Shown here in pieces: positions 849 through 24,115 of a DNA stretch of 24,578 bases. The notes under the pieces were generated by a model that made no database searches, was not told where the DNA came from, and was given only the letters and a program-made list of their open reading frames with translations. Origin of the DNA: a virus; IMG/VR virus record IMGVR_UViG_3300025646_000352, positions 1 through 24,578 of that record, one strand, 5' to 3'. A program made the position numbers and the translations under genes. Within the stretch, counting starts at the first letter, position 1; the number at the start of each line of letters is the position of its first letter.

Positions 849-880
849 TCGCTAAGCTGACGATGTAGGCCACCGCTGCC

Positions 881-1532: not shown

Positions 1533-2679
1533 TCTGTTCAAGTTCTATAAGCACGGCACGCCGCATCAAATGTCCGCCGTGGCTGAACTTGAAGCTGAGC
1601 TGATGGCGGCAGCGCCGGAGGTATTTGAGCGTAGTCGGCCGTGGTATCGCACCTGGCAGCAAGCCGGCAAGCTGCATGATTATGCGCCAGCCATAAAGCT
1701 CATTAAAGAGTTTGAAGGCTGCCACCTCAGCGCATACCCAGACCCGCTGCATGGCTGGGATGTAGCAACCATTGGCTATGGCACCACACGCTACCCCGAT
1801 AGTCGCAAGGTGCAGCGCGGCGACAAGATCACCGTGATCGACGCGCAGGAGCTGCTGGAGATCGAGGTGGAGCGCATCGCCGCTAAGCTGCGCGCGTCGG
1901 TGCCGCATTGGGGTGCCATGCGGCAAGGGCAGCAGTGTGCGTTGATCAGCTTCGCCTACAACCTCGGCGCTGAATTCTATGGCTCTGCAGGATTTGAGAC
2001 CATCAGCAAACGACTGCGCGAAAAGGATTGGGCGCGGGTGCCAGCTGCGATGGAGTCGTACCGCAATCCCGGCAGCAACGTGGAGGCCGGCCTGCTCCGT
2101 CGTCGTCGCGCGGAAGGTGCATTGTGGCGCGAGGGTCAACCGGAGGTGCAGCAGTCTGGTGTCATGCTGCAAGTGCCGTATGAGCTGCAGCATGACAACC
2201 GCTCAGGTGCGGGATACCGCGAATGCTTCAGCTCCAGTGCCGCGATGGTGGCGCGGTTCTATGGCAAGGTGACGAACGATGATGCCTACAACGCCATCCG
2301 CCAGCGTTTCGGTGATACCACCGACGCAATGGCGCAGGTGAAGGCACTCAACAGCCTTGGCCTTGTCGCGCAGTTCCGCACTAATGCAACTGTGGAGCTG
2401 CTAGAATCTGAGCTAGAGGCCGGCCAGCCGGTGATGGTTGGTTGGTTGCATCATGGCCATGCATCGCGCCCTACAGGCGGCGGGCACTGGAGCGTAGTGG
2501 TCGGCATGACGCCAAAGGCATTCGTCCACAACGACCCAAACGGTGAAGCTGATCTGCTCAACGGCGGCTACGTCAATACCACCGCCGGGCGTAATGTTGC
2601 CTACAGCCGTCAAAACTGGCTGCGGCGTTGGCTGCCGGATGGCCCATCCTCGGGATGGTGTATCACGGTGCGACGGTAG
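1510..2679 (+). CDS. Endolysin: GH24 muramidase plus C39-like cysteine peptidase
   Basis: From the ATG at 1510 the product has 389 residues; an open frame reaches back to 1423 but its first 29 codons look like out-of-frame sequence of the previous gene. Residues about 58-205 are a T4-lysozyme-type GH24 domain with E69 (EFEG), D78 (AYPD) and T87 (TIGYG) in the catalytic order, which cuts the glycan strand of peptidoglycan. Residues about 218-389 resemble a C39-like papain-fold peptidase: C239 (YRECFSSSAAM), H326 (GGHWSVVVG) and N341/D342 (HNDPNG), likely cutting a peptide bond of the wall. The first 57 residues are a helical N-terminal region seen in cyanophage relatives. No signal peptide is visible, so release should depend on a holin. 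The lysozyme call is strong; the peptidase role is by motif only. Confidence 0.88.
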   Translation: MTAVRLTDLFKFYKHGTPHQMSAVAELEAELMAAAPEVFERSRPWYRTWQQAGKLHDYAPAIKLIKEFEGCHLSAYPDPLHGWDVATIGYGTTRYPDSRKVQRGDKITVIDAQELLEIEVERIAAKLRASVPHWGAMRQGQQCALISFAYNLGAEFYGSAGFETISKRLREKDWARVPAAMESYRNPGSNVEAGLLRRRRAEGALWREGQPEVQQSGVMLQVPYELQHDNRSGAGYRECFSSSAAMVARFYGKVTNDDAYNAIRQRFGDTTDAMAQVKALNSLGLVAQFRTNATVELLESELEAGQPVMVGWLHHGHASRPTGGGHWSVVVGMTPKAFVHNDPNGEADLLNGGYVNTTAGRNVAYSRQNWLRRWLPDGPSSGWCITVRR

Positions 2680-2688
2680 ACTGCAACC

Positions 2689-3908: not shown

Positions 3909-3930
3909 GCGCCACACATCACCGTGGCGC
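3909..3930. repeat. Inverted repeat at the convergent junction
   Basis: GCGCCAC at 3909-3915 and GTGGCGC at 3924-3930 form a perfect 7-bp stem with an 8-base loop. It covers the stop codon of the sigma gene and lies 47 bases after the HNH stop, where + and - transcripts meet. Neither side has a run of T, so it is not a classical intrinsic terminator. It could still slow or process both transcripts. Low-confidence regulatory call. Confidence 0.35.
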
Positions 3931-4821
3931 TGAATAGTTGGCTCCAAGCGGTGTACCCTCCATTGGGTTGTTGATCAACATCTTCAGCCTATTGATCCCA
4001 CGTTGCTCCGCGCCTTGCAGCGTTTGCTTCGATACCTTGTACTGCTGCTCTAGTTCGCGCCACGGTATCGGGTTGCGGCTATACCGTGCAGTGATCACAT
4101 CACGTGTGCGTTCATCCAAGTAGGCATCACAATACTGACGGATGATGTCTAGTTGCCAGTCATTTTCGGGGTCATAGGTATTCGGATCAGCGATTAGATC
4201 CATCAATGCTGAATGATCCTCGCAGCCTTGCGCTGGTTTATCAAGGCTTGATACCTTATACGACTGCAGCAACGTTTGCGATATTGCAGTGGGTTCCATG
4301 TCAAGAATGCCCGCAAGATCTTGCAATGTTGCTGTGCGGCCATGTTCGCGGCTGAATTGTTCAGCGGTCTTGTGCAATTTGATCAGTAGATCATGCGCAC
4401 CAACTGGCAACCTAATAATCGGGTCATATTGCACCAATGCGCGTCCAATCGCCTGACGGATCCACCAGTAGGCATAAGTTGAAAACTTATAGCCGCGCGT
4501 GTAATCAAACAGCTCTACAGCACGCGCAAGGCCCATGTTGCCTTCTTGGATGATGTCCATCATCTCCAGTGTTTGCGTTGCACGGCGGCGATATTTACGC
4601 GCGATATGTACTACCAGCTGCAGGTTGGATTGAATGAACCGCTGCCGCGCGCGTTCACCACTACGCAACTCGCGGCGTTCTTCAGTGGTCAGTGGTCTGT
4701 CGTAATCCTTAAGTTCCCGCCAGCGTTGTACGCGGCGCCCGAGTTGTATCTCTTGCTGCGGCGTAAGCAGTGGATACCGGGCGATACTGTTGAGGTAATC
4801 GCTAACGAGATCAGTTGACAT
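3919..4821 (-). CDS. Phage-encoded sigma-70 family RNA polymerase sigma factor
   Basis: 300 residues. Region 1.2 spans about residues 4-33 (DLVSDYLNSIARYPLLTP), region 2 about 60-140, with 2.1-2.2 core binding (NLQLVVHIARKY, DIIQEGNMGLARAV) and 2.3-2.4 -10 recognition (YKFSTYAYWWIRQAIGRAL), region 3 about 141-195 and region 4 about 228-282. The WW pair that opens the -10 element is kept. YAYWWIRQAI is the form typical of cyanobacterial group-2 sigmas, which points to a cyanobacterial host. In region 2.4 a Gly replaces the usual Thr (QAIGR versus QAITR). The region 4.2 recognition helix is unusual (VSKQTLQGAEQRG instead of the RERVRQIE type). It should bind host core RNA polymerase and redirect it, perhaps to late phage promoters, which is inference. 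A candidate promoter lies at 4847-4875. Confidence 0.93.
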   Translation of the reverse strand: MSTDLVSDYLNSIARYPLLTPQQEIQLGRRVQRWRELKDYDRPLTTEERRELRSGERARQRFIQSNLQLVVHIARKYRRRATQTLEMMDIIQEGNMGLARAVELFDYTRGYKFSTYAYWWIRQAIGRALVQYDPIIRLPVGAHDLLIKLHKTAEQFSREHGRTATLQDLAGILDMEPTAISQTLLQSYKVSSLDKPAQGCEDHSALMDLIADPNTYDPENDWQLDIIRQYCDAYLDERTRDVITARYSRNPIPWRELEQQYKVSKQTLQGAEQRGINRLKMLINNPMEGTPLGANYSAPR

Positions 4822-5068
4822 GGATGAAAATCCGTTGGTTCATTCGATTGAAGCACAATTCCACGGTGCAGCCAATGCTTCCATGTTGCGGCAGTTGCAC
4901 GCTGATGGGCAATACACTGCACTACTGGAATATGCACTGCTGCTAGCGGAGCAAGAAGCAAGCCAGCGGTCGCAAATCCAGTGGTTGATTCGTGAAGCCG
5001 CTAGCGGCGGTGTACCACCTGTGCAGCAGTGGCATTTGGAGGTTGCTAGGGAGTTGGGTGGTGGTTAG
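4820..5068 (+). CDS. Conserved-looking small helical protein, opposite strand to its surroundings
   Basis: Eighty-two residues (MDENPLVHSIEAQFHGAANA...), mostly helical and acidic, with repeated Ala, Leu, Glu and Gln (LLEYALLLAEQEASQRSQIQWL). I do not know a function. Its ATG overlaps the divergent sigma start by two bases (CATG), and its stop overlaps the convergent dCTP deaminase stop by four, so it fills exactly the gap between two - strand genes. Codon use and composition look protein-like, which argues against a chance antisense ORF. No Shine-Dalgarno is seen, and its promoter would have to lie inside the sigma gene. Confidence 0.6.
   Translation: MDENPLVHSIEAQFHGAANASMLRQLHADGQYTALLEYALLLAEQEASQRSQIQWLIREAASGGVPPVQQWHLEVARELGGG
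4847..4875 (-). promoter_or_regulatory. Candidate promoter for the sigma gene
   Basis: Read on the - strand: TTGGCT (4870-4875), 17 bases, then TTCAAT (4847-4852) preceded by TGC, an extended -10 context. The predicted transcript would begin near 4840, about 19 bases before the sigma start. It lies inside the opposing 82-residue gene. It is the weakest match of the promoter family described for this window. Confidence 0.4.
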
Positions 5069-5571
5069 GTGATGGAACCCATCACGCTGTCGTGGCCGTT
5101 GTAGTGGCCTGTTACCGCATAACTTAGCTCCGGCATGGCGCTCATGCGGATGAATACGACCTGGCCAATCTTCAAGCCTGGATATAACGGCAGCGGTAAG
5201 ATCTGCCGTGCATTTTTCAGCTCCAGCGTCAGTACACTACCATGCCACCCTGGATCGGCGTAACCAGCGTGGCTGTGCTCATACCCTTCGCGTGCACGGC
5301 TGGACTTCAAGAAGAACAAGCCGGCGACATCCTCGGGCATGTTGAACCGCTCGATCGTTTCAGCCAAGATGAACTGCCCAGGCCGCAGCCAGTACGGATC
5401 ATCAGCAGTGCGATCTGCGATGCTAAGCGGCCGCATGTTCAAGTCCTCGGCAGATTCGATCATGATTGTGCCGCCAAGACGTAGGTCAAGGCTGGCGGGG
5501 TTGATCAATGCTGGATCGTAGCCTTCGACCATTCCGGCGTTGCGGATTTCGCGATCGCAAAGAATCGACAT
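5065..5571 (-). CDS. dcd: dCTP deaminase
   Basis: 168 residues. Dcd-family signatures are present: INPASLDLRLG (23-33), KSSRAREG (89-96), HAGYADPGWHG (101-111), LTLELKN with the likely catalytic E117, and PGLKIGQVVF (131-140). The enzyme deaminates dCTP to dUTP, feeding dTTP synthesis during phage replication; some family members also hydrolyse dUTP, and I cannot tell which type this is. The length is a little short of the usual ~190 residues. Its start lies inside the end of the upstream zinc-ribbon gene. It is the last gene of the big leftward operon before the sigma gene. Confidence 0.9.
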   Translation of the reverse strand: MSILCDREIRNAGMVEGYDPALINPASLDLRLGGTIMIESAEDLNMRPLSIADRTADDPYWLRPGQFILAETIERFNMPEDVAGLFFLKSSRAREGYEHSHAGYADPGWHGSVLTLELKNARQILPLPLYPGLKIGQVVFIRMSAMPELSYAVTGHYNGHDSVMGSIT

Positions 5572-5791
5572 TGAGTTTTAAATGCAAGGTGAATGGTCCG
5601 CCGCTGAGATCACTAGCATCATCTGGTTCAGCCAGGAACTCAGCGAATTGAATGGTCTTGTACCGATAACCGCAGAATTCACATTCTCGATAACGTAGGT
5701 AGTCGCCACCTTCAGAGCGGTATGTGCGCAGCACGCTGGTGATCAGTGCTTTGCATTGCGGGCATGGGCATGAGGCGCGATTGAGTGGCAT
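5486..5791 (-). CDS. NrdR/Ogr-like zinc-ribbon protein
   Basis: 101 residues from the ATG at 5791; an upstream GTG at 5866 in the same frame is less likely. A four-Cys ribbon (CPCPQC ... CEFCGYRYKT) fills residues about 8-45, with aromatic and basic residues typical of the NrdR N-terminal or Ogr-type nucleic-acid binding ribbon. The NrdR ATP-cone domain is absent, so this is not a full NrdR. The C-terminal 35 residues are basic and low in complexity and overlap the dCTP deaminase start by 86 bases. A DNA- or RNA-binding regulator is likely, target unknown. Confidence 0.65.
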   Translation of the reverse strand: MPLNRASCPCPQCKALITSVLRTYRSEGGDYLRYRECEFCGYRYKTIQFAEFLAEPDDASDLSGGPFTLHLKLNVDSLRSRNPQRRNGRRLRSSIDQPRQP

Positions 5792-5905
5792 CAGAAGGCT
5801 AAAATGAATCTGACCCTTTCTGGGCCATCGCGTAACCGCTGCGCCCGCCAGCGGTGAGATTGCCACCTCGGGAGGAGCAGTCAGCGGGCGCCCAAGTTGA
5901 TCGAG

Positions 5906-13418: not shown

Positions 13419-13446
13419 ATGGTACACCATGCGCCGCCGTGGCCAA
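13419..13446 (-). promoter_or_regulatory. Candidate promoter for the 13289 gene
   Basis: TTGGCC (13441-13446), 16 bases, TACCAT (13419-13424). The -10 hexamer and spacer length equal those of the promoter at 21042-21069. It lies directly after the stop of the 65-residue gene at 13450. Confidence 0.4.
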
Positions 13447-15256: not shown

Positions 15257-16613
15257 CCTTGCGGGCACGGGCGGCGTGCACATGCTTCGCCCATGCAGCT
15301 GGGTTCTTGTAGCCGCGCGTGCGGCCAAGCTGGATCAGCTGCTCCAACGACTGCGCTGAGCCTTGCTCACGCTTGCGCTCCCGAGCTGCAGCAGCAAGCT
15401 CCACCAGCTCGCCTTCCACGGTCTGCAGTTCCCTGCGCTCCACCGGTGCAAACACATGCCCGCATTCAGCGCACACGCGGGCGGTGCTGAGGCTGGTACT
15501 GAAGCATTTAGGGCAGACCTTGCAGCTCGGGGCAGATTCGCGCTGTTGCTTGCGGCGGCCGTCAAGGCTCCACTCATGCACCTGCAGCGGATGGCCAAGC
15601 CTGCCGCAGTTGCCGACGTGATCAAGGATGATCAGATCACGCTTGCCCGTTGCGATCCGCAAACCGCGACCATTGCCTTGCAACCATGCCGTTAGTGATT
15701 GCGTTGGTCTGAGCCAGATCACCACATCAATCTCAGGCACATCAACGCCAGCAATCCACAGCTGCGCGCACGCCACTAGGTCAAGCCGTCCAGCGCGTAA
15801 TCCAGCAACAGCTTCGCGGCGTTCGCGGTCATCGCTGCCGCCATGTACCGCAACAGCGCGATAGCCAGCGCGGCGCCATTGATCAGCAACAGCCTGTGCA
15901 TGGGCCACAGTGGTGCAAAACGCAACACCACGGCGGCCACGGCACAACTTACGCCAGTGGCTCAGTGCATCACCAACAACAGCCGGCTTGCTCATCATTT
16001 CACCGGCTTGCCCTTGATCAAAGTCACCGCCACGGCTGCGCAGTCCGGTTAGGTCAACGCCAGGTGGTGCATAGACACGCACTGGCGCTAGCAGTCCTTC
16101 CTCGATCAGTTCAGCCGTCGAGCATGTCGGCACCAAGCGGTCAAACACCTCACCGAGTCCACGCCCATCGAGCCGCTGAGCTGTCCCGGTGAGTCCGAGC
16201 AGCAGCGGCCGGCCAGCGGCGGCGATCACTTTTTTGTAGCTATCAGCTACAGCTAGATGGCATTCGTCGATGATGATCAAATCCGGTCGTGGCAACCGTG
16301 GCCGCCGCACTGCTGTTGCAACACCAACCACCTGCACTGGCCTTGAATAGTCCACGCGCATACCAGCGCGGATGTGGCCATGCAGGATCCCAGCATGGCG
16401 CAGGCGTGCGCTGGTATCTTCCAGGATTTCCTTCAGGTGCGCCAGAAACCACACGCTACGGCCGCGTGCAGTGCTGCTGCGGACGATTTCGGCGGCCGTC
16501 GCGGTTTTGCCGAAACCCGTTGGTGCCACAAGGATCGGGGCGCGCGCGCCGCTTTGATATGCAGCGCGCAGGTCTTCAACCGCCTTGAGTTGGCGGGGGC
16601 GGAGTTGGATCAC
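15243..16613 (-). CDS. SF2 DEAD/DEAH-like helicase
   Basis: 456 residues. Superfamily-2 motifs in order: Walker A APTGFGKT (30-37), DECH (116-119), LTGTAQR (141-147, in place of the usual LTATP), and motif VI QGNGRGLR (312-319). A four-Cys zinc ribbon (C367xxC370 and C381xxC384, with C364 nearby) follows in the linker, then a helical Arg/Gln-rich tail. It should unwind or remodel nucleic acids with ATP in replication or repair. Its start overlaps the fusion protein's stop (ATGA), so the two are made together. Confidence 0.9.
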   Translation of the reverse strand: MIQLRPRQLKAVEDLRAAYQSGARAPILVAPTGFGKTATAAEIVRSSTARGRSVWFLAHLKEILEDTSARLRHAGILHGHIRAGMRVDYSRPVQVVGVATAVRRPRLPRPDLIIIDECHLAVADSYKKVIAAAGRPLLLGLTGTAQRLDGRGLGEVFDRLVPTCSTAELIEEGLLAPVRVYAPPGVDLTGLRSRGGDFDQGQAGEMMSKPAVVGDALSHWRKLCRGRRGVAFCTTVAHAQAVADQWRRAGYRAVAVHGGSDDRERREAVAGLRAGRLDLVACAQLWIAGVDVPEIDVVIWLRPTQSLTAWLQGNGRGLRIATGKRDLIILDHVGNCGRLGHPLQVHEWSLDGRRKQQRESAPSCKVCPKCFSTSLSTARVCAECGHVFAPVERRELQTVEGELVELAAAARERKREQGSAQSLEQLIQLGRTRGYKNPAAWAKHVHAARARKVAHG

Positions 16614-18871
16614 ACCAGCTCTCCCTGCTTGGCGGATTCACACTGCTGCAGGTTCTTGGCGGCGCAGTTGAAGTAGGAAGGCTTCAGCTCAAACCCAACA
16701 AACCGCCTACCCATTTGCAGGCTGACGTATCCCTCGCTGCCGATACCAGCGAATGGGCTCAGCACAAGATCGCCCGGATTGCTCCACAGCTGCAAACCAC
16801 GACGGATCACCTCAAGCTGCAGCGGGCAGATATGGCGCTCATCGTCATTGGCGCGGGCGCTGCGGTATTGCAGCGTGTCTGATGGGTTGATGTCCATCCA
16901 CACGGGGCTGGCATACCGCTGCCAGATGTTGATTGAATCCTTGATCGGATCGCCGGTCTTGGGCGGCGGATTCTCACCGGCGAATTCCGTGAACGGTCCG
17001 GCGCACGGCTCAGGGTTGTCGCCCAGCTTCCGCACGGTCACTAGATAATCTGGGATGCCTTGGCGGCTGAGTGCTGAATCCTTGCGGATCTGCTTATGCA
17101 GCAGGCCGATCGCTTTGGTGCGCTGCATCGCAGTGACCGGATCCTTCCAGATGCACACCTCGCTATGGAATACGAAGCCGGCAGATTGGAAGATCCGCAG
17201 CATGTCACCGCGAAAGTCTTTTACTCCAATGAAGCCATCGCGTTCCTTACTGCTCGGCAGGTTCATGCAGTGGAAGCTGATCAGCCTGCCTGGCATCATC
17301 ACGCGGTGCAGCTCAGTAGCTAGGAAGCCGAAATGATCAAAGAACTCCTGCTCCGTTCGGCTGTTGCCCATATCACGGTCGCTGTTGCTGTAGGTGTAGA
17401 GCGACGCAAATGGTGGGCTGAAGACGCTGTAGTGGATTGAATCAGAATCCAACTGGCGGATGCTCTCCACGCAGTCGCCTAGGTACAGATCCCAGTTATC
17501 GCCGCTCTTGCGCTCGGTGATGTGCGGCGCCACCTGGCGCTGGATCTTCTTGAGTTGCTCCATTGTGGTCTTCTTCATGATTTCAACCATTGATTGAGCC
17601 ATTGCGATGCTGTCCGATTCCTTGCGGCGGATGTTATCAATCACGCGGCCTTCGGCCACGTCGTAGATGATGTGCGCATTCACCGGATGCTGTTGGCCGA
17701 ATCGCCAACACCTGCGGATGGCTTGATAGAACGCTTCATAGCTATGGGACAAGCCAACAAATGCGACATTGTGGCACCGCTGGAAGTTCAAGCCAAAGCC
17801 AAAGATGCTCGGCTTGCTTACCAGTACGCGAATCTTGCCGTCTTGGAAATCAATCGCAGCCTGCCGCTTGTGATCATCGCCGTCGCTGCCGGACACCTCA
17901 ACAGCGCCATTGATGGCAGCAGTGAGCGCCTTGCTTTCATCGTTCAGATCACACCACACCAGCCATTGCTCATCGCTGGCATTAGCAAGTGCAGCAGCAG
18001 CGTCAACGCGCAGCTGCAAACTAGCCTTGCGCACCTGCCGTTGATCGCTCAGCGTGCGCGCTTCCATCGCAAACAGCGCCATCTGGCCGTCGTCGCCGGC
18101 CGCAGCCTCGCGCGGTGTTTCAACCGTGCAATCATGGATGCGCAGTTCCGGTAGCACGAATTCTCCATCCTCATAACCAAGGTCCGATGGTTTGCGGATG
18201 GTCACTGCCCAGCTGCAAACCCACTCCCAGAACTTGGTCTTTGCGTGGCCCTTCAGTCGCCACTTGCTGGTATCACCGCCGTCATGCACGAAGAACATCG
18301 CCAGCATTTCGGTGCGTGTCATCACACCAATGAACTCAGCATGGTTGCCAAGTTCCATATGGTCGTTCGGTGCTGGCGTGGCTGAGCACGCAAGGCGATA
18401 CGGCGTCTGCGCAAATGACTCAATGATCTGATTGCGGATTTTGCCGGTATATGCCTTCAAGATGCTGGACTCATCCAGCACTACGCCTTGGAAACTGGCC
18501 GCATCAAAGTGGCTCAGCTTCTCGTAATTGGTGACCGTGATGCCGGGCTTGACATCAGCTTGCGTTGCAGCGAAGTTGCAGCTGATGCCGAACTTTTGCC
18601 CTTCGCGTACGGTTTGATGTGCAACCGCAAGTGGTGCTAGCACCAGCACATTGCCGCCGGTATATTCATGCACTTGATGCGCCCATTCAAGCTGCATGGC
18701 AGTCTTGCCCATGCCGCAGTCGGCCCAGATGCAGAACTTACCGACGCGGCACGCCATTGTCACGATGTCCTGCTGGAACGGGAACAATGGCGCGGTGAAT
18801 GATTGCGGATCAAATCCAGTTGCCGGCGCAGCGGTGGATTTAGCGGCGAGGAACTCTTGATATTCCTGCAT
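16610..18871 (-). CDS. SNF2-type helicase fused to a DNA methyltransferase
   Basis: 753 residues from the ATG at 18871, chosen because a GGAGG lies four bases before it. The first 450 residues are an SF2/SNF2-like ATPase: DCGMGKT (51-57), DESS (133-136), ACSATPAP (161-168) and motif VI QAIRRCWRFGQ (383-393). The last 290 are a class-beta amino-methyltransferase: motif IV SPPF (485-488) comes before motif I LSPFAGIGSEG (704-714). SPPF/SPPY usually marks N4-cytosine methylation, though some adenine enzymes share it. Fused helicase-methylases are known in phages; here they may protect the genome from host restriction. No target-recognition domain is obvious. The -10 to +5 region has the best Shine-Dalgarno on this strand. 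Confidence 0.92.
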   Translation of the reverse strand: MQEYQEFLAAKSTAAPATGFDPQSFTAPLFPFQQDIVTMACRVGKFCIWADCGMGKTAMQLEWAHQVHEYTGGNVLVLAPLAVAHQTVREGQKFGISCNFAATQADVKPGITVTNYEKLSHFDAASFQGVVLDESSILKAYTGKIRNQIIESFAQTPYRLACSATPAPNDHMELGNHAEFIGVMTRTEMLAMFFVHDGGDTSKWRLKGHAKTKFWEWVCSWAVTIRKPSDLGYEDGEFVLPELRIHDCTVETPREAAAGDDGQMALFAMEARTLSDQRQVRKASLQLRVDAAAALANASDEQWLVWCDLNDESKALTAAINGAVEVSGSDGDDHKRQAAIDFQDGKIRVLVSKPSIFGFGLNFQRCHNVAFVGLSHSYEAFYQAIRRCWRFGQQHPVNAHIIYDVAEGRVIDNIRRKESDSIAMAQSMVEIMKKTTMEQLKKIQRQVAPHITERKSGDNWDLYLGDCVESIRQLDSDSIHYSVFSPPFASLYTYSNSDRDMGNSRTEQEFFDHFGFLATELHRVMMPGRLISFHCMNLPSSKERDGFIGVKDFRGDMLRIFQSAGFVFHSEVCIWKDPVTAMQRTKAIGLLHKQIRKDSALSRQGIPDYLVTVRKLGDNPEPCAGPFTEFAGENPPPKTGDPIKDSINIWQRYASPVWMDINPSDTLQYRSARANDDERHICPLQLEVIRRGLQLWSNPGDLVLSPFAGIGSEGYVSLQMGRRFVGFELKPSYFNCAAKNLQQCESAKQGELV

Positions 18872-19029
18872 CAAACCTCCACGCAATCATCAGAATCACC
18901 TTCAGTCCAAATCACACGCGGTTCACCGTCGGGCGAATCCGGCGCCTGGCGTACCACAGCAACCGGCGCAGGTTTGCTGCAGTATTCAGGGATCGGCTGC
19001 TGGGTGGTGAGGATTAAAGCGGTGAGCAT
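18871..19029 (-). CDS. Hypothetical 52-residue acidic protein
   Basis: Found in the gap: MLTALILTTQQPIPEYCSKP, then APVAVVRQAPDSPDGEPRVI and WTEGDSDDCVEV. Pro/Asp-rich, probably unstructured apart from two short strands; two Cys. Start and stop each share one base with the neighbours (TAATG and TGATG), which supports it. It carries the Shine-Dalgarno of the helicase-methylase gene in its last codons. Function unknown. Confidence 0.6.
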   Translation of the reverse strand: MLTALILTTQQPIPEYCSKPAPVAVVRQAPDSPDGEPRVIWTEGDSDDCVEV

Positions 19030-21000: not shown

Positions 21001-21021
21001 CAGAGTTGAGAGATGGGAGGA

Positions 21022-21035
21022 CGCAGTGATCTGCG
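21022..21035 (-). other. Leader hairpin of the 21000 gene
   Basis: CGCAG and CTGCG (5-bp stem, 4-base loop) on the - strand, a few bases after the predicted transcript start of the promoter at 21042-21069. Confidence 0.4.
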
Positions 21036-21041
21036 CTTGAG

Positions 21042-21069
21042 ATGGTAGCAGTTCCGCCTACTGGCGCAA
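21042..21069 (-). promoter_or_regulatory. Candidate leftward promoter in the divergent control region
   Basis: TTGCGC (21064-21069), 16 bases, TACCAT (21042-21047) with TGC before the -10. About 40 bases of leader follow to the ATG at 21000. The -35 forms half of the palindrome at 21064-21075. Confidence 0.55.
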
Positions 21070-21075
21070 CTGCGC
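21064..21075. promoter_or_regulatory. Palindrome in the divergent control region, candidate operator
   Basis: GCGCA-AC-TGCGC, a 12-base near-palindrome covering the leftward -35 and lying about 50 bases before the RHH gene. RHH proteins often bind short palindromes near their own promoter, so this is a plausible site for the product of the 21124 gene. I find no convincing rightward promoter in 21001-21123. Confidence 0.35.
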
Positions 21076-21123
21076 ACACTGTAGCACCTTGCACTACGAT
21101 GGGGAGCGACCAACGGAGCATCA

Positions 21124-21295: not shown

Positions 21296-23812
21296 ATGAC
21301 CGTGTTAGAAGCAGCACAAGGCAGGTGGCCTGACCTGCTGGCGGCTCTTGCTGGCCTCACGCCGGAGCAGCTGACCGACACGCATCAACCGTGCCCCTTG
21401 TGTGGTGGCACCGACCGTTACCGCTTCGACGACAAGGATGGTTCCGGTTCCTGGTTCTGCAATCAATGCGGCGGCAAAAACCAGTCAGGTGGTGGCGGCA
21501 CCGGCATGGATATGCTCATGCGCCGCAATGGCTGGAGTTTTGCCGAGGCTGCCAAGCGGATTGAGCAGCATCTCGGTATTGCCAAGCCAAAACCGGCTCC
21601 ACCGCTGCCGCGCGGCAAGCAGTTTTGGCAATACAGCAGCGACTTCTATGTTGTCCGCAAAGACAAGCCGGACGGCGACAAAGACATCCGGCCGCTTTGG
21701 TGGGATGGCGAAGCATGGCGATGGAAGGCGCCGCCTGCGCCACGTCTGTTGTACGGCAAGCGCCAGCTGACGCTCAAACCCAATGCGCCGGTGCTGGTGG
21801 TTGAAGGCGAAAAGACCGCCGACGCTGCCGCATTGCTGTTCCCGCAGGCGGTCGTGATTACATGGCCCGGTGGTTGCAAGGCCATCGGTAAAGCTGATTG
21901 GTCGCCGATAGTCGGCAGGCGTTGCGTGCTATGGCCTGATGCTGATGATGTTGGCCGCGCCGCAATGGCCAAGCTGTCCATCAAGCTGTTGCAGCTCGGT
22001 GCAGATCAGGTGCGCATCGTGCAGCCGCCAGCTGATGTGCCCAAAGGTTGGGATCTAGCGGATGCCACATGGTCACCGGCCGAAGCTGCTGCCTACCTGC
22101 GCGCCAATCGCTCCGCACCAATCGAGCTGCCGGCGCTTGCTGTGCCTGACGCCGAACCCGACCGCGATCCAATACCGGAGCCGGCGCCGCTACCAAAGCA
22201 AGGTGAAGCCTTTACGTGCCTTGGCTTTGACAATGACGCCTACTTCTATCAGCCCAACAGCACCGGCCAGGTGATCCGGCTCGGTCGTGCCAGTCACACC
22301 GGCACCAACCTATGCGCCATCGCGCCGATCGAATACTGGCAGTCGTTCTACCCATCCAGGACTGGCACCGACTGGACATCAGCGGCATCCAGCTTGTTTG
22401 AGCTGCAGTCCCGCATCGGCATCTACGACCCGCATCGCATTCGCGGCCGTGGTGCATGGCGCGATCAAGGTCAGTCGGTGCTGCACCTCGGTGATCGCCT
22501 CATCATCGGTGACCGCTCCGTACCATCATCTACCGGCATCGATGGCAGCGCTTACATCTATCAGCGTCTCGCGCGCTTGACCGGGCCAGGTACAGCAAAG
22601 CCGCTCAGCCGTGATGACGCCTACATCCTTTGCGGTATCGCCGAGCGCTTCCGCTGGGAAGTACCCGTATCAGGACTGTTGCTTGCTGGCTGGGTTGTGC
22701 TCGCGCCGGTCTGCGGTGCACTCGACTGGCGGCCGCATATCTGGATCACAGCCGGCGCCGGTTCCGGCAAATCCGCCATCCTTGAGCGCTACATCGCGCC
22801 ATTGCTCGGAGACCTATCACTACATGTCTCCGGCAACACCTCAGAAGCTGGTCTCCGCCAAACGTTACGAGCCGATGCGTTGCCGGTGGTATTTGATGAG
22901 GCCGAATCCAACGAAAAGACCGATCAGCAGCGGATGCAGAACGTGCTATCCCTAGCGCGTGTTGCCAGTAGTGAATCACGCGCGCAAACAATCAAAGGCA
23001 GCGCCGATGGTGACGCACAACGCTATGCCATCCGAAGCATGTTTTGCATGTCGTCGATTGCAACAGCACTCAAGCAAGGTGCCGACAAATCACGCTTTGC
23101 GCAGCTCACATTACGCAATCCAGGCGATACACCAAAGGCAGAACGCATCGCCCATTGGGAACAGTTAGACCGCGATCTTGATCGTTACGTCACTGATCGC
23201 GTCGGGCAGCGATTACAGGCGCGGACTGTAGCGATGATTCCAACAATACGCGAGTCGATTAAAGTCTTCACCCGTACAGCCGCTGAAATCTTTGATAGCC
23301 AACGCCTCGGCGATCAGTACGGTGCATTACTCGGTGGCGCGTGGTCTTTGTACTCCGACGATATAGCAACCCGTGATGAAGCGTATCAGCTGATTGAGCA
23401 GAACAGCTGGGAATCGTATTCGCAATCCACTGAGTTGCCGGATGAAAAGCGGTGTATTCAGATGATCCTTCAGCATCAAGTGCGCGTTGAATCTGATGAT
23501 CGTATCTGCACGCGAACGCTTGGTGAGCTTGTGGAAATCGCCGCATCGCGTCGCGTTGACCGCGAAGTGACTGCCACGCAGGCGCAGGACAGCATGTCTC
23601 GGGTTGGTCTCAAGGTGGACAACCAGCGGCAGGCGTTGCTGGTGAGCAACACCGCAGGTGCCATCGCCGCCATCCTCCGCGATACCGCATGGGCGCAATG
23701 CTGGGCAACAGTGCTCGCGCGGCTACCAGATGCGCAGCGCGTCGGCTCCACGCGATTCAGTGGCGCTGGCACCGTCAGCCGCGCCATAGCGTTACAGATC
23801 GATGGTTTGTAA
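21296..23812 (+). CDS. Primase-helicase: zinc ribbon, TOPRIM and P-loop ATPase
   Basis: 838 residues. Zinc ribbon C33xxC36 ... C55xxC58 (CPLCGGTDRYRF, then WFCNQCGGK) as in P4-alpha-type primases; a TOPRIM core with E170-G-E-K173 (LVVEGEKTADAA) and D215/D217 (VLWPDADDVG); then a DUF927/P4-like ATPase with Walker A TAGAGSGKS (485-493) and Walker B PVVFDEAE (530-537). It should lay RNA primers and unwind DNA at the phage origin. The C-terminal 200 residues are a helical or winged unit that, in P4-alpha, binds the origin; here a set of repeats lies right after the gene. It starts one base after the RHH stop. Confidence 0.92.
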   Translation: MTVLEAAQGRWPDLLAALAGLTPEQLTDTHQPCPLCGGTDRYRFDDKDGSGSWFCNQCGGKNQSGGGGTGMDMLMRRNGWSFAEAAKRIEQHLGIAKPKPAPPLPRGKQFWQYSSDFYVVRKDKPDGDKDIRPLWWDGEAWRWKAPPAPRLLYGKRQLTLKPNAPVLVVEGEKTADAAALLFPQAVVITWPGGCKAIGKADWSPIVGRRCVLWPDADDVGRAAMAKLSIKLLQLGADQVRIVQPPADVPKGWDLADATWSPAEAAAYLRANRSAPIELPALAVPDAEPDRDPIPEPAPLPKQGEAFTCLGFDNDAYFYQPNSTGQVIRLGRASHTGTNLCAIAPIEYWQSFYPSRTGTDWTSAASSLFELQSRIGIYDPHRIRGRGAWRDQGQSVLHLGDRLIIGDRSVPSSTGIDGSAYIYQRLARLTGPGTAKPLSRDDAYILCGIAERFRWEVPVSGLLLAGWVVLAPVCGALDWRPHIWITAGAGSGKSAILERYIAPLLGDLSLHVSGNTSEAGLRQTLRADALPVVFDEAESNEKTDQQRMQNVLSLARVASSESRAQTIKGSADGDAQRYAIRSMFCMSSIATALKQGADKSRFAQLTLRNPGDTPKAERIAHWEQLDRDLDRYVTDRVGQRLQARTVAMIPTIRESIKVFTRTAAEIFDSQRLGDQYGALLGGAWSLYSDDIATRDEAYQLIEQNSWESYSQSTELPDEKRCIQMILQHQVRVESDDRICTRTLGELVEIAASRRVDREVTATQAQDSMSRVGLKVDNQRQALLVSNTAGAIAAILRDTAWAQCWATVLARLPDAQRVGSTRFSGAGTVSRAIALQIDGL

Positions 23813-24115
23813 CGCTTCGCCAGAGGTGCGTTACAGGGCAAACCCACTGCGCCGCAGCACTTGTAACGGTTCAGAGGCTTGTAACGCTTTTCAGATATAT
23901 ATCCCCCTAGAGAGAAGGAGCACTACCTACCCACCTACTAAGGTTGCAAGGGTAGGCCCCAATCCTTTATATATATTTCTCTGTTACATGATACAAACAA
24001 CAAGACAGGCCGTGAGACTGCCTGCGCTGGTGTGGATCTCGGCGTAACGCTTTTTGTAACGCTCCGGCCCCAAACCGTTACAACCCAGTCCACCACTAGA
24101 AACTGCACCGTTACA
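23789..24115. repeat. Iteron-like repeat cluster, candidate replication origin
   Basis: Copies of TGTAACGC or TGTAACGG, both orientations. Forward: 23808-23815, 23862-23869, 23880-23887, 24043-24050 (first base C), 24055-24062. Reverse: 23789-23796, 23828-23835, 24075-24082, 24108-24115. A shorter TGTTACA is at 23982-23988. Several are 18-20 bases apart, about two helical turns. Two AT-rich stretches (GATATATATCC near 23893 and TTTATATATATTT near 23966) lie in the 155-base gap between the two groups, along with an inverted repeat CCTACCC/GGGTAGG (23926-23956, 17-base spacer). This is the make-up of an iteron origin with a DNA-unwinding element next to its initiator gene. Confidence 0.7.

Follow-up and report, generated by a model that had tools for sequence, protein, structure and literature searches.

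A phage-encoded sigma-70 factor with altered promoter-contact residues and a candidate late promoter motif in freshwater cyanophages

Sigma factors are common in cyanophages, being counted in 65 of 153 genomes in a review (PMC10452541), and those of cyanosiphoviruses were already known (PMC2784084, PMC6157547, PMC3751600, PMC10452541); in the accessible portions of these four sources, no promoter is demonstrated to be read by a cyanophage sigma. The locus described here raises the question of which promoters such a factor would read. It lies in the window, by which we mean the whole stretch of DNA analysed, an entire IMG/VR virus record (IMGVR_UViG_3300025646_000352; 24,578 bases) from a virus that infects freshwater cyanobacteria. 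An initial annotation, made from the letters alone, had proposed a full-length phage-encoded sigma-70 factor with regions 1.2 to 4. The gene was indeed found on the minus strand at 3919..4821, with an ATG start, encoding 300 aa with regions 1.2, 2 and 3, probably region 4, and no region 1.1.

Pfam models matched region 1.2 (43.2 bits, cut-off 22), region 2 (Sigma70_r2; 68.4 bits, cut-off 24) and region 3 (41.1 bits, cut-off 25.3) of the protein, and the region 4 model gave no match at E<=0.01. PDB sequence matches extended as far as residue 280 and the AlphaFold model (mean pLDDT 77.2) placed four helices at 222-284; judged from these matches and predicted helices, region 4 appears to be present despite the Pfam miss. 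Region 2 carries the core-binding and -10 melting residues of the sigma-70 family, W433 and W434 (residue positions are given in E. coli numbering) being invariant in 81 of 81 aligned rows of the clade described below. Region 1.2 starts at residue 4, leaving no region 1.1 of the kind that marks group 1 (housekeeping) sigmas. The presence of regions 1.2 and 3 separates the protein from the ECF type, which has regions 2 and 4 only, and the matches to regions 1.2, 2 and 3, with the predicted region 4 helices, separate it from the T4 gp55 type. The best NCBIfam model was TIGR02997 (cyano-RpoD, E 5.9e-69), which agrees with the cyanobacterium-like character first proposed, although the curated cut-off was not reached (232.6 bits versus 384.5). 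The top structural alignment was to a cyanobacterial SigA (Syn7942; Z 19.0, 211 residues aligned, rmsd 6.4), and the profile of phage sigma factors PHROG 351 matched with E 6.1e-59. The factor thus shares domain order and best family with the cyanobacterial group 2 sigmas (RpoD-like, TIGR02997) but differs from them in its identity of 35-40%, its score below the cut-off and its changed contact residues.

The initial annotation had considered the gene likely to be a capture from a cyanobacterium. Our scan of viral contigs returned at least 599 stretches encoding a relative of the sigma, the best 80 of which are 58-100% identical to it, and with so many relatives the ORF is more than chance. Matches in the phage collection were all below 60% identity, and in the genome scan identity to the best 80 host loci was 35-40%. 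A first quick tree, built from 97 rows, had only phages in the window's clade (8 rows, SH-aLRT 99). A second quick tree of 94 rows took its outgroup from E. coli (RpoD and RpoS), Acinetobacter (RpoD) and a further two sigmas, and left out eight long-branch rows (L327, L085, L245, L256, L236, L237, L239 and L233). There, the window's clade (100) fell inside a virus-only group of 35 rows (87), and all 43 hosts, the outgroup and two viral rows formed a separate group (81); both trees carry SH-aLRT support only, and the deciding forks of the second stand at 81-87. The phylogeny that had been suggested as a check thus gave a phage-only clade with many phage relatives, nested in no host group, rather than a place within a host group 2 clade devoid of phage relatives, and in both quick trees the factor is not among the host cyanobacterial group 2 sigmas. 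Recent capture was rejected: the 35-40% identity to the closest host sigmas and the position of the clade outside the hosts in both trees argue against it, and the trees give no date for the origin.

Promoter-contact residues were compared in an alignment of 43 host rows, 46 other viral rows and 81 clade rows (L001 and L002 both being the window; L327 was left out beforehand), of which many are close copies, so that the residue counts are not independent events. We take the contact, melting and core-binding roles of the aligned positions to be those of the E. coli sigma. In regions 2.4 to 3.0 (residues 119-144; 4390..4467, minus strand), WWIRQ is kept, whereas T440 is replaced by G126, R448 by P134, H455 by G141 and E458 by D144. 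The glycine noted in region 2.4 in place of the usual threonine is therefore confirmed, and it is no sequencing slip, because 79 of the 81 clade rows have Gly at position 440 (hosts: Thr 40/43, Asn 3). Position 448 is Pro in all 81 clade rows and Arg in all 43 hosts, and position 455 is Gly in 79/81 (hosts: His 40/43, Asn 3). The recognition helix of region 4.2 (residues 264-280; 3982..4032, minus strand), already described as unusual, proved so over residues 264-274 in the alignment, with R584 changed to K, E585 to Q, R588 to Q and Q589 to G. Across the clade, position 585 is Ala, Gly, Ser, Gln, Thr or His (hosts: Glu 36, Asp 7), the Arg found at 588 in 43/43 hosts is lost from 80/80 rows (Cys 73, Gln 5, Ser 2), and 589 is Glu, Gln, Asp, Gly or Arg (hosts: Gln 36, Asn 6, Lys 1). 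Upstream in region 4, residues 564-566 are deleted in 81/81 clade rows and present in hosts. This three-residue deletion and the clade-wide changes of R448 to Pro and H455 to Gly, on the same contact surface as position 440, go beyond what had been noted. Invariant in 81/81 clade rows are W433, W434, R436, Q437, R441, Q406 and E407, while the basic residues R593, R597 and R/K599 are retained throughout the 80 rows that are not gapped at these positions. On this alignment, the clade's sigmas appear to have lost base-reading positions and to have retained core-binding, melting and basic ones. They would offer natural variation that separates core binding from promoter reading.

In the window, the sigma is the last gene of a leftward block and faces the lysis genes. 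To its left lie rightward genes ending with endolysin (1423-2679), a metallophosphatase-like gene and an HNH gene; to its right lie leftward genes for dCTP deaminase, SSB, RecT, a nuclease, a helicase and a helicase-methylase fusion. The gene order is as had been claimed, with the sigma between the leftward block and the rightward lysis genes. The sigma-70 genes of the cyanosiphoviruses S-CBS1, S-CBS3, KBS-S-2A and S-LBS1 (rpsD4 or RNA polymerase sigma factor) face endolysin in the same way. In cultured S-CBS1, KBS-S-2A and S-CBS3 the gene closes the leftward block or lies close to its end; in S-LBS1, however, six rightward genes separate it from that block. These four proteins are at most 52% identical to the window's sigma over 69% of the protein, with 36-38% over most of its length for KBS-S-2A and S-CBS3. 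An SRE-type recognition helix is kept by S-CBS1, KBS-S-2A and S-CBS3, but not by S-LBS1, and the window differs from all four in an 82-aa gene without homologue in the phage records. The group 2 sigma of P-SS2, a Prochlorococcus siphovirus, is likewise siphoviral, with 28.8% identity over 81% of the query; canonical sigma-70 promoter reading was inferred for it by its authors (PMC2784084).

Promoter-like sequences were sought in three sets: set A, 18 genomes or contigs comprising the window and close relatives, 16 of which gave the motif lead; set B, 12 members that are more distant and have the overlapping gene described below, not used for motif discovery; and set C, 10 cyanosiphoviruses from the sigma groups of cultured phages. 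Canonical promoters in the window were dropped as a candidate, since consensus sites numbered 2 and 3, fewer than the 5.3 and 5.5 expected. On the relatives' early strand, sites of the type TTGACC...CATGG...TAGGAT were found, and the word CATGG.{0,4}TA[TG][AG].T occurred 23 times on the early and once on the late strand in set A (9 versus 5 in set B). One promoter-like site of this early family is present in the window: TTGGCC-N16-TACCAT, carrying the conserved GGCGGCGCATGG spacer (13419..13446, minus strand). Upstream of late genes, dyad counting gave the lead CTA..CTG; on the early strand, dyad counts stayed within those of shuffles. The resulting word TARACT (TA[G/A]ACT) was present 15-55 nt upstream of 52/499 late and 0/260 early genes in set A (Fisher p 1.3e-10), 32/365 and 0/137 in set B (p 2.5e-5) and 21/313 and 0/124 in set C (p 7.4e-4), p-values that are optimistic given that the genomes are related; set A is the source of the pattern. 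In dereplicated late upstream regions, TAGACT was found in 14/91 for set A (1.2 expected), 11/105 for set B (1.0 expected) and 23/187 for both together (2.0 expected). Within 120 nt of early genes of sets A and B there was no TARACT, and five modified forms of the word matched 0-5 times per set on the late side. Only a minority of late genes have the motif, and genome-wide TAGACT on the late strand is not above a second-order Markov expectation (in the relative G032, 6 versus 2.8, with up to 9 in 60 runs), so that the signal is one of position and strand rather than of genome-wide count.

An A was found at +12 of the motif in 12/21 cases in set A, 17/25 in B and 14/19 in C; in the joint dereplicated A+B set it was present in 26/42, against a nearby frequency of 0.27 (p=2.1e-6, uncorrected, for an offset first noticed in the data). 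Twelve nucleotides is the usual distance from the first base of a -10 element to the transcription start. No -35 was detected at the motif in sets A and B, where the best match to TTGACA averaged 2.76 versus 2.79 in shuffles and matches of at least 5 numbered 0/42, nor was a -35 signal found in set C. An extended -10 (TGn) was seen in 1/42. The early and late motifs therefore differ: the search for a shared promoter outside the early family upstream of the relatives' structural genes, suggested by the initial annotation, gave this promoter-like motif, which is not identical to the early family.

In the window itself, TAGACTG occurs once (2677..2683, plus strand; 1.24 expected, hence not above chance in the window alone), with the A at +12 being that of the ATG at 2689 of the metallophosphatase-like gene. 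None of the window's six late genes has TARACT 15-55 nt upstream, and TAAGCT (853..858, plus strand), 28 nt before the gene at 881, is a weak candidate late -10; this 24.6-kb record lacks the structural module of the window's phage. TAGACT also stands exactly 12 nt before an ATG at position 54 of G032 (L463), and leaderless late messages are suggested by the spacing at both places. Alignments upstream of capsid, head, neck, terminase and scaffold-like genes, also tried as a route to the late motif, were set aside, the conserved capsid leader not being promoter-like. That leader, 83-84 nt with two GGCTGCGCC repeats upstream of the major capsid gene, is conserved in genomes of set A (e.g. G012 and G016) and KBS-S-2A, and is possibly an RNA element or a translational control.

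We propose, with a probability of roughly one half, that the window's sigma serves the phage's late genes, relies chiefly on the -10 and starts transcription at TA[G/A]ACT promoters without a -35. Host RNA polymerase would first read the early promoters (TTGaCC, about 16-17 nt, TAkGAT), which would drive the leftward replication block with the sigma as its last gene. The factor would then dock on the host core via its intact region 2, melt the -10 with the intact W433/W434 and start the rightward morphogenesis and lysis genes at promoters made of TA[G/A]ACT(G) and lacking a -35, where transcription would begin at an A located 12 nt downstream. In region 4.2, the surface that normally reads the -35 would be freed from selection for base reading and may have drifted, with fold and basic residues retained. 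Computation gives the protein with its residues, clade and place in the gene order, as well as the relatives' early and late motifs and the A at +12. From these we infer the sigma to be the reader of the late motif, this motif to act as an in vivo promoter, the timing, and a behaviour of the window's phage like that of its relatives. The late-switch role put forward initially is supported indirectly, since the gene closes the leftward block opposite the lysis genes and relatives have a late motif that differs from the early family. The scarcity of TAGACT before host genes and its absence before genes of phages without a detected sigma, both quantified below, also speak for the proposal, as does the ability of SigD, a sigma of host group 2, to work in vitro at a promoter with a -10 only (PMC2758279). 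TA[G/A]ACT is thus a concrete candidate promoter sequence for cyanophage sigmas.

An alternative that we consider unlikely is an ordinary group 2-like sigma for host take-over, which would compete with SigA and redirect transcription of the host or of early phage genes at standard cyanobacterial promoters, the late motif being read by the host holoenzyme. TIGR02997 is its best NCBIfam match, and expression of the S-CBS2 and S-CBS3 phage sigmas in S. elongatus is reported in a review to have altered growth and metabolites (PMC10452541). A missing -35 consensus is frequent among cyanobacterial promoters: those of S. elongatus have none and favour an A at +1 (PMC3219970), so that -10-only promoters need no special sigma, a point that also counts against the late-sigma proposal. 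Against take-over of this kind, the contact residues conserved in hosts are lost in the clade, and TAGACT is not enriched before GC-rich cyanobacterial host genes (1/210 upstream regions) and precedes 0/138 genes in phages without a detected sigma (S-CBS4 0/47, Syn5 0/51, a prophage contig 0/40; for S-CBS4 the first 50 kb only, with 63/105 features, none named sigma, so that the rest may hold one).

The link between our late sigma and the motif is correlative. We had considered that the motif needs a window-type sigma, which was not upheld: in five sigma-bearing genomes (S-CBS1, S-CBS3, S-LBS1, G056 and G057) TARACT precedes 0/139 late genes and TAGACT is absent from the late strand. In KBS-S-2A, G053, G054, G058 and G059 the motif is present with a different sigma. 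It accompanies KBS-S-2A-type terminase, portal or capsid genes more than it does the sigma clade, and could accordingly be a mark of such late modules, read by unmodified host polymerase with the sigma incidental. We find this quite improbable: although motif presence follows the structural module, GC-rich hosts make no detectable use of the motif, and G032 has it with another head module. This 55,100-bp genome with a 127-bp end repeat is 90-94% identical to the window in aligned blocks above 1 kb, and its terminase, portal and capsid genes are S-CBS/S-LBS-like; it has 6 late and 1 early TAGACT, with A at +12 in 5/6, and is the only module swap seen, so the numbers are small.

The altered promoter reading first proposed stood as far as the residues are concerned, but its re-tuning to a new -35 is doubtful: that region 4.2 reads a phage-specific -35 differing between sub-lineages would suit the variation of the recognition-helix residues between them and the retained basic residues and fold, yet neither A+B nor C showed a -35 signal at the late motif (though pooling sub-lineages could mask lineage-specific ones), and for this reason a factor that no longer reads the -35 is a better fit than one with a new specificity there. 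Hosts supply precedents for -10-only promoters, which are common among cyanobacteria (PMC3219970, PMC2758279), so region 4, though altered, could be relaxed instead of re-tuned, and the clade could reveal the role of region 4 once the -35 is gone.

The interval between the sigma and dCTP deaminase genes is occupied by an 82-aa ORF (4820..5068, plus strand), head-to-head with the sigma. The two start codons overlap by two bases in CATG (4819..4822). The gene is conserved, with dN/dS mostly about 0.1-0.3 (pairwise dN and dS of, e.g., 0.04/0.48, 0.11/0.86 and 0.24/0.86). BLAST found a homologue in 77/80 sigma-clade loci, the other three having at most 60 nt of room; starting from the 82-aa protein, the best 80 of 180 relatives adjoin an opposite-strand sigma with CATG in 80/80, and the start overlap is present in 160/160 loci of both sets, some contigs being common to both. 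Four helices are predicted (pLDDT 77.3), with no PDB fold match (best E 7.5). No match was found among 50,697 phage records, in PHROGs or PDB sequences or, for the window's member, in Pfam; across the family, four Pfam families match one member each (E 0.039 to 0.59). In 1/299 genomes of a Cyanobium's order, a homologue lies on a cyanobacterial contig (G169:C45), after a C39-peptidase ORF and before a gene with below-cut-off integrase matches; our sigma search of this contig found none. A strict sigma partnership is weakened by this homologue, and the gene is therefore probably a late-strand gene able to exist without sigma; an anti-sigma role is only a guess. The contig (L488-L490) carries phage genes related to these phages and is possibly a temperate cousin and a host link. 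In the sigma 5' part, low synonymous variation at codons 11-12, 16-17, 21 and 23-26 (4744..4791) marks a possible embedded control region of the 82-aa gene, other low values occurring elsewhere.

T4 late promoters are -10-only, and T4 gp55 is the phage late-gene sigma to which the proposed role can be likened. The window's sigma differs from it in having region 3 and, as predicted, region 4; gp55 is very small, and the place of sigma region 4 on the flap is taken by a separate protein, gp33 (PMC2988020). A wider reading, which we offer tentatively as a possibility, is that a four-domain sigma without -35 reading runs the late programme of a major uncultivated freshwater cyanophage lineage: sigma-4 would be a polymerase-flap anchor, region 2.4/3.0 would be rebuilt, late promoters would consist of TA[G/A]ACT with a +1 A, and the 82-aa gene would be a control partner, with either late antisense transcription through the sigma or the helical protein limiting the sigma. 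The -35-less factor would then be a self-contained counterpart of the split gp55/gp33 arrangement. Neither the residue changes shared across the clade, nor the late motif, nor the orphan gene that overlaps the sigma turned up in the literature found, mostly non-subscription and available in part. For TAGACT, the phage literature returned only unrelated titles, most subscription literature lying outside the scope, and absence in print is not claimed.

Several other features of the window were observed. The gap at 21001-21123 between diverging leftward and rightward blocks is likely the main early control region. A 758-aa protein (16610-18886, minus strand) fuses a helicase and an N6/N4 DNA methylase, matched by two separate genes in G032, and an ORF at 5486-5866 (minus strand) has an NrdR-like zinc ribbon (26.0 bits versus the Pfam cut-off of 27.2). 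After the primase gene, nine GTTACA/TGTAAC words lie within 325 bases (23791-24115), out of 13 in the whole window, an iteron-like candidate replication origin. At the place of this cluster, G012 and G016 have TCGGACGCAA repeats and G007 has a AGGACGGT-type repeat.
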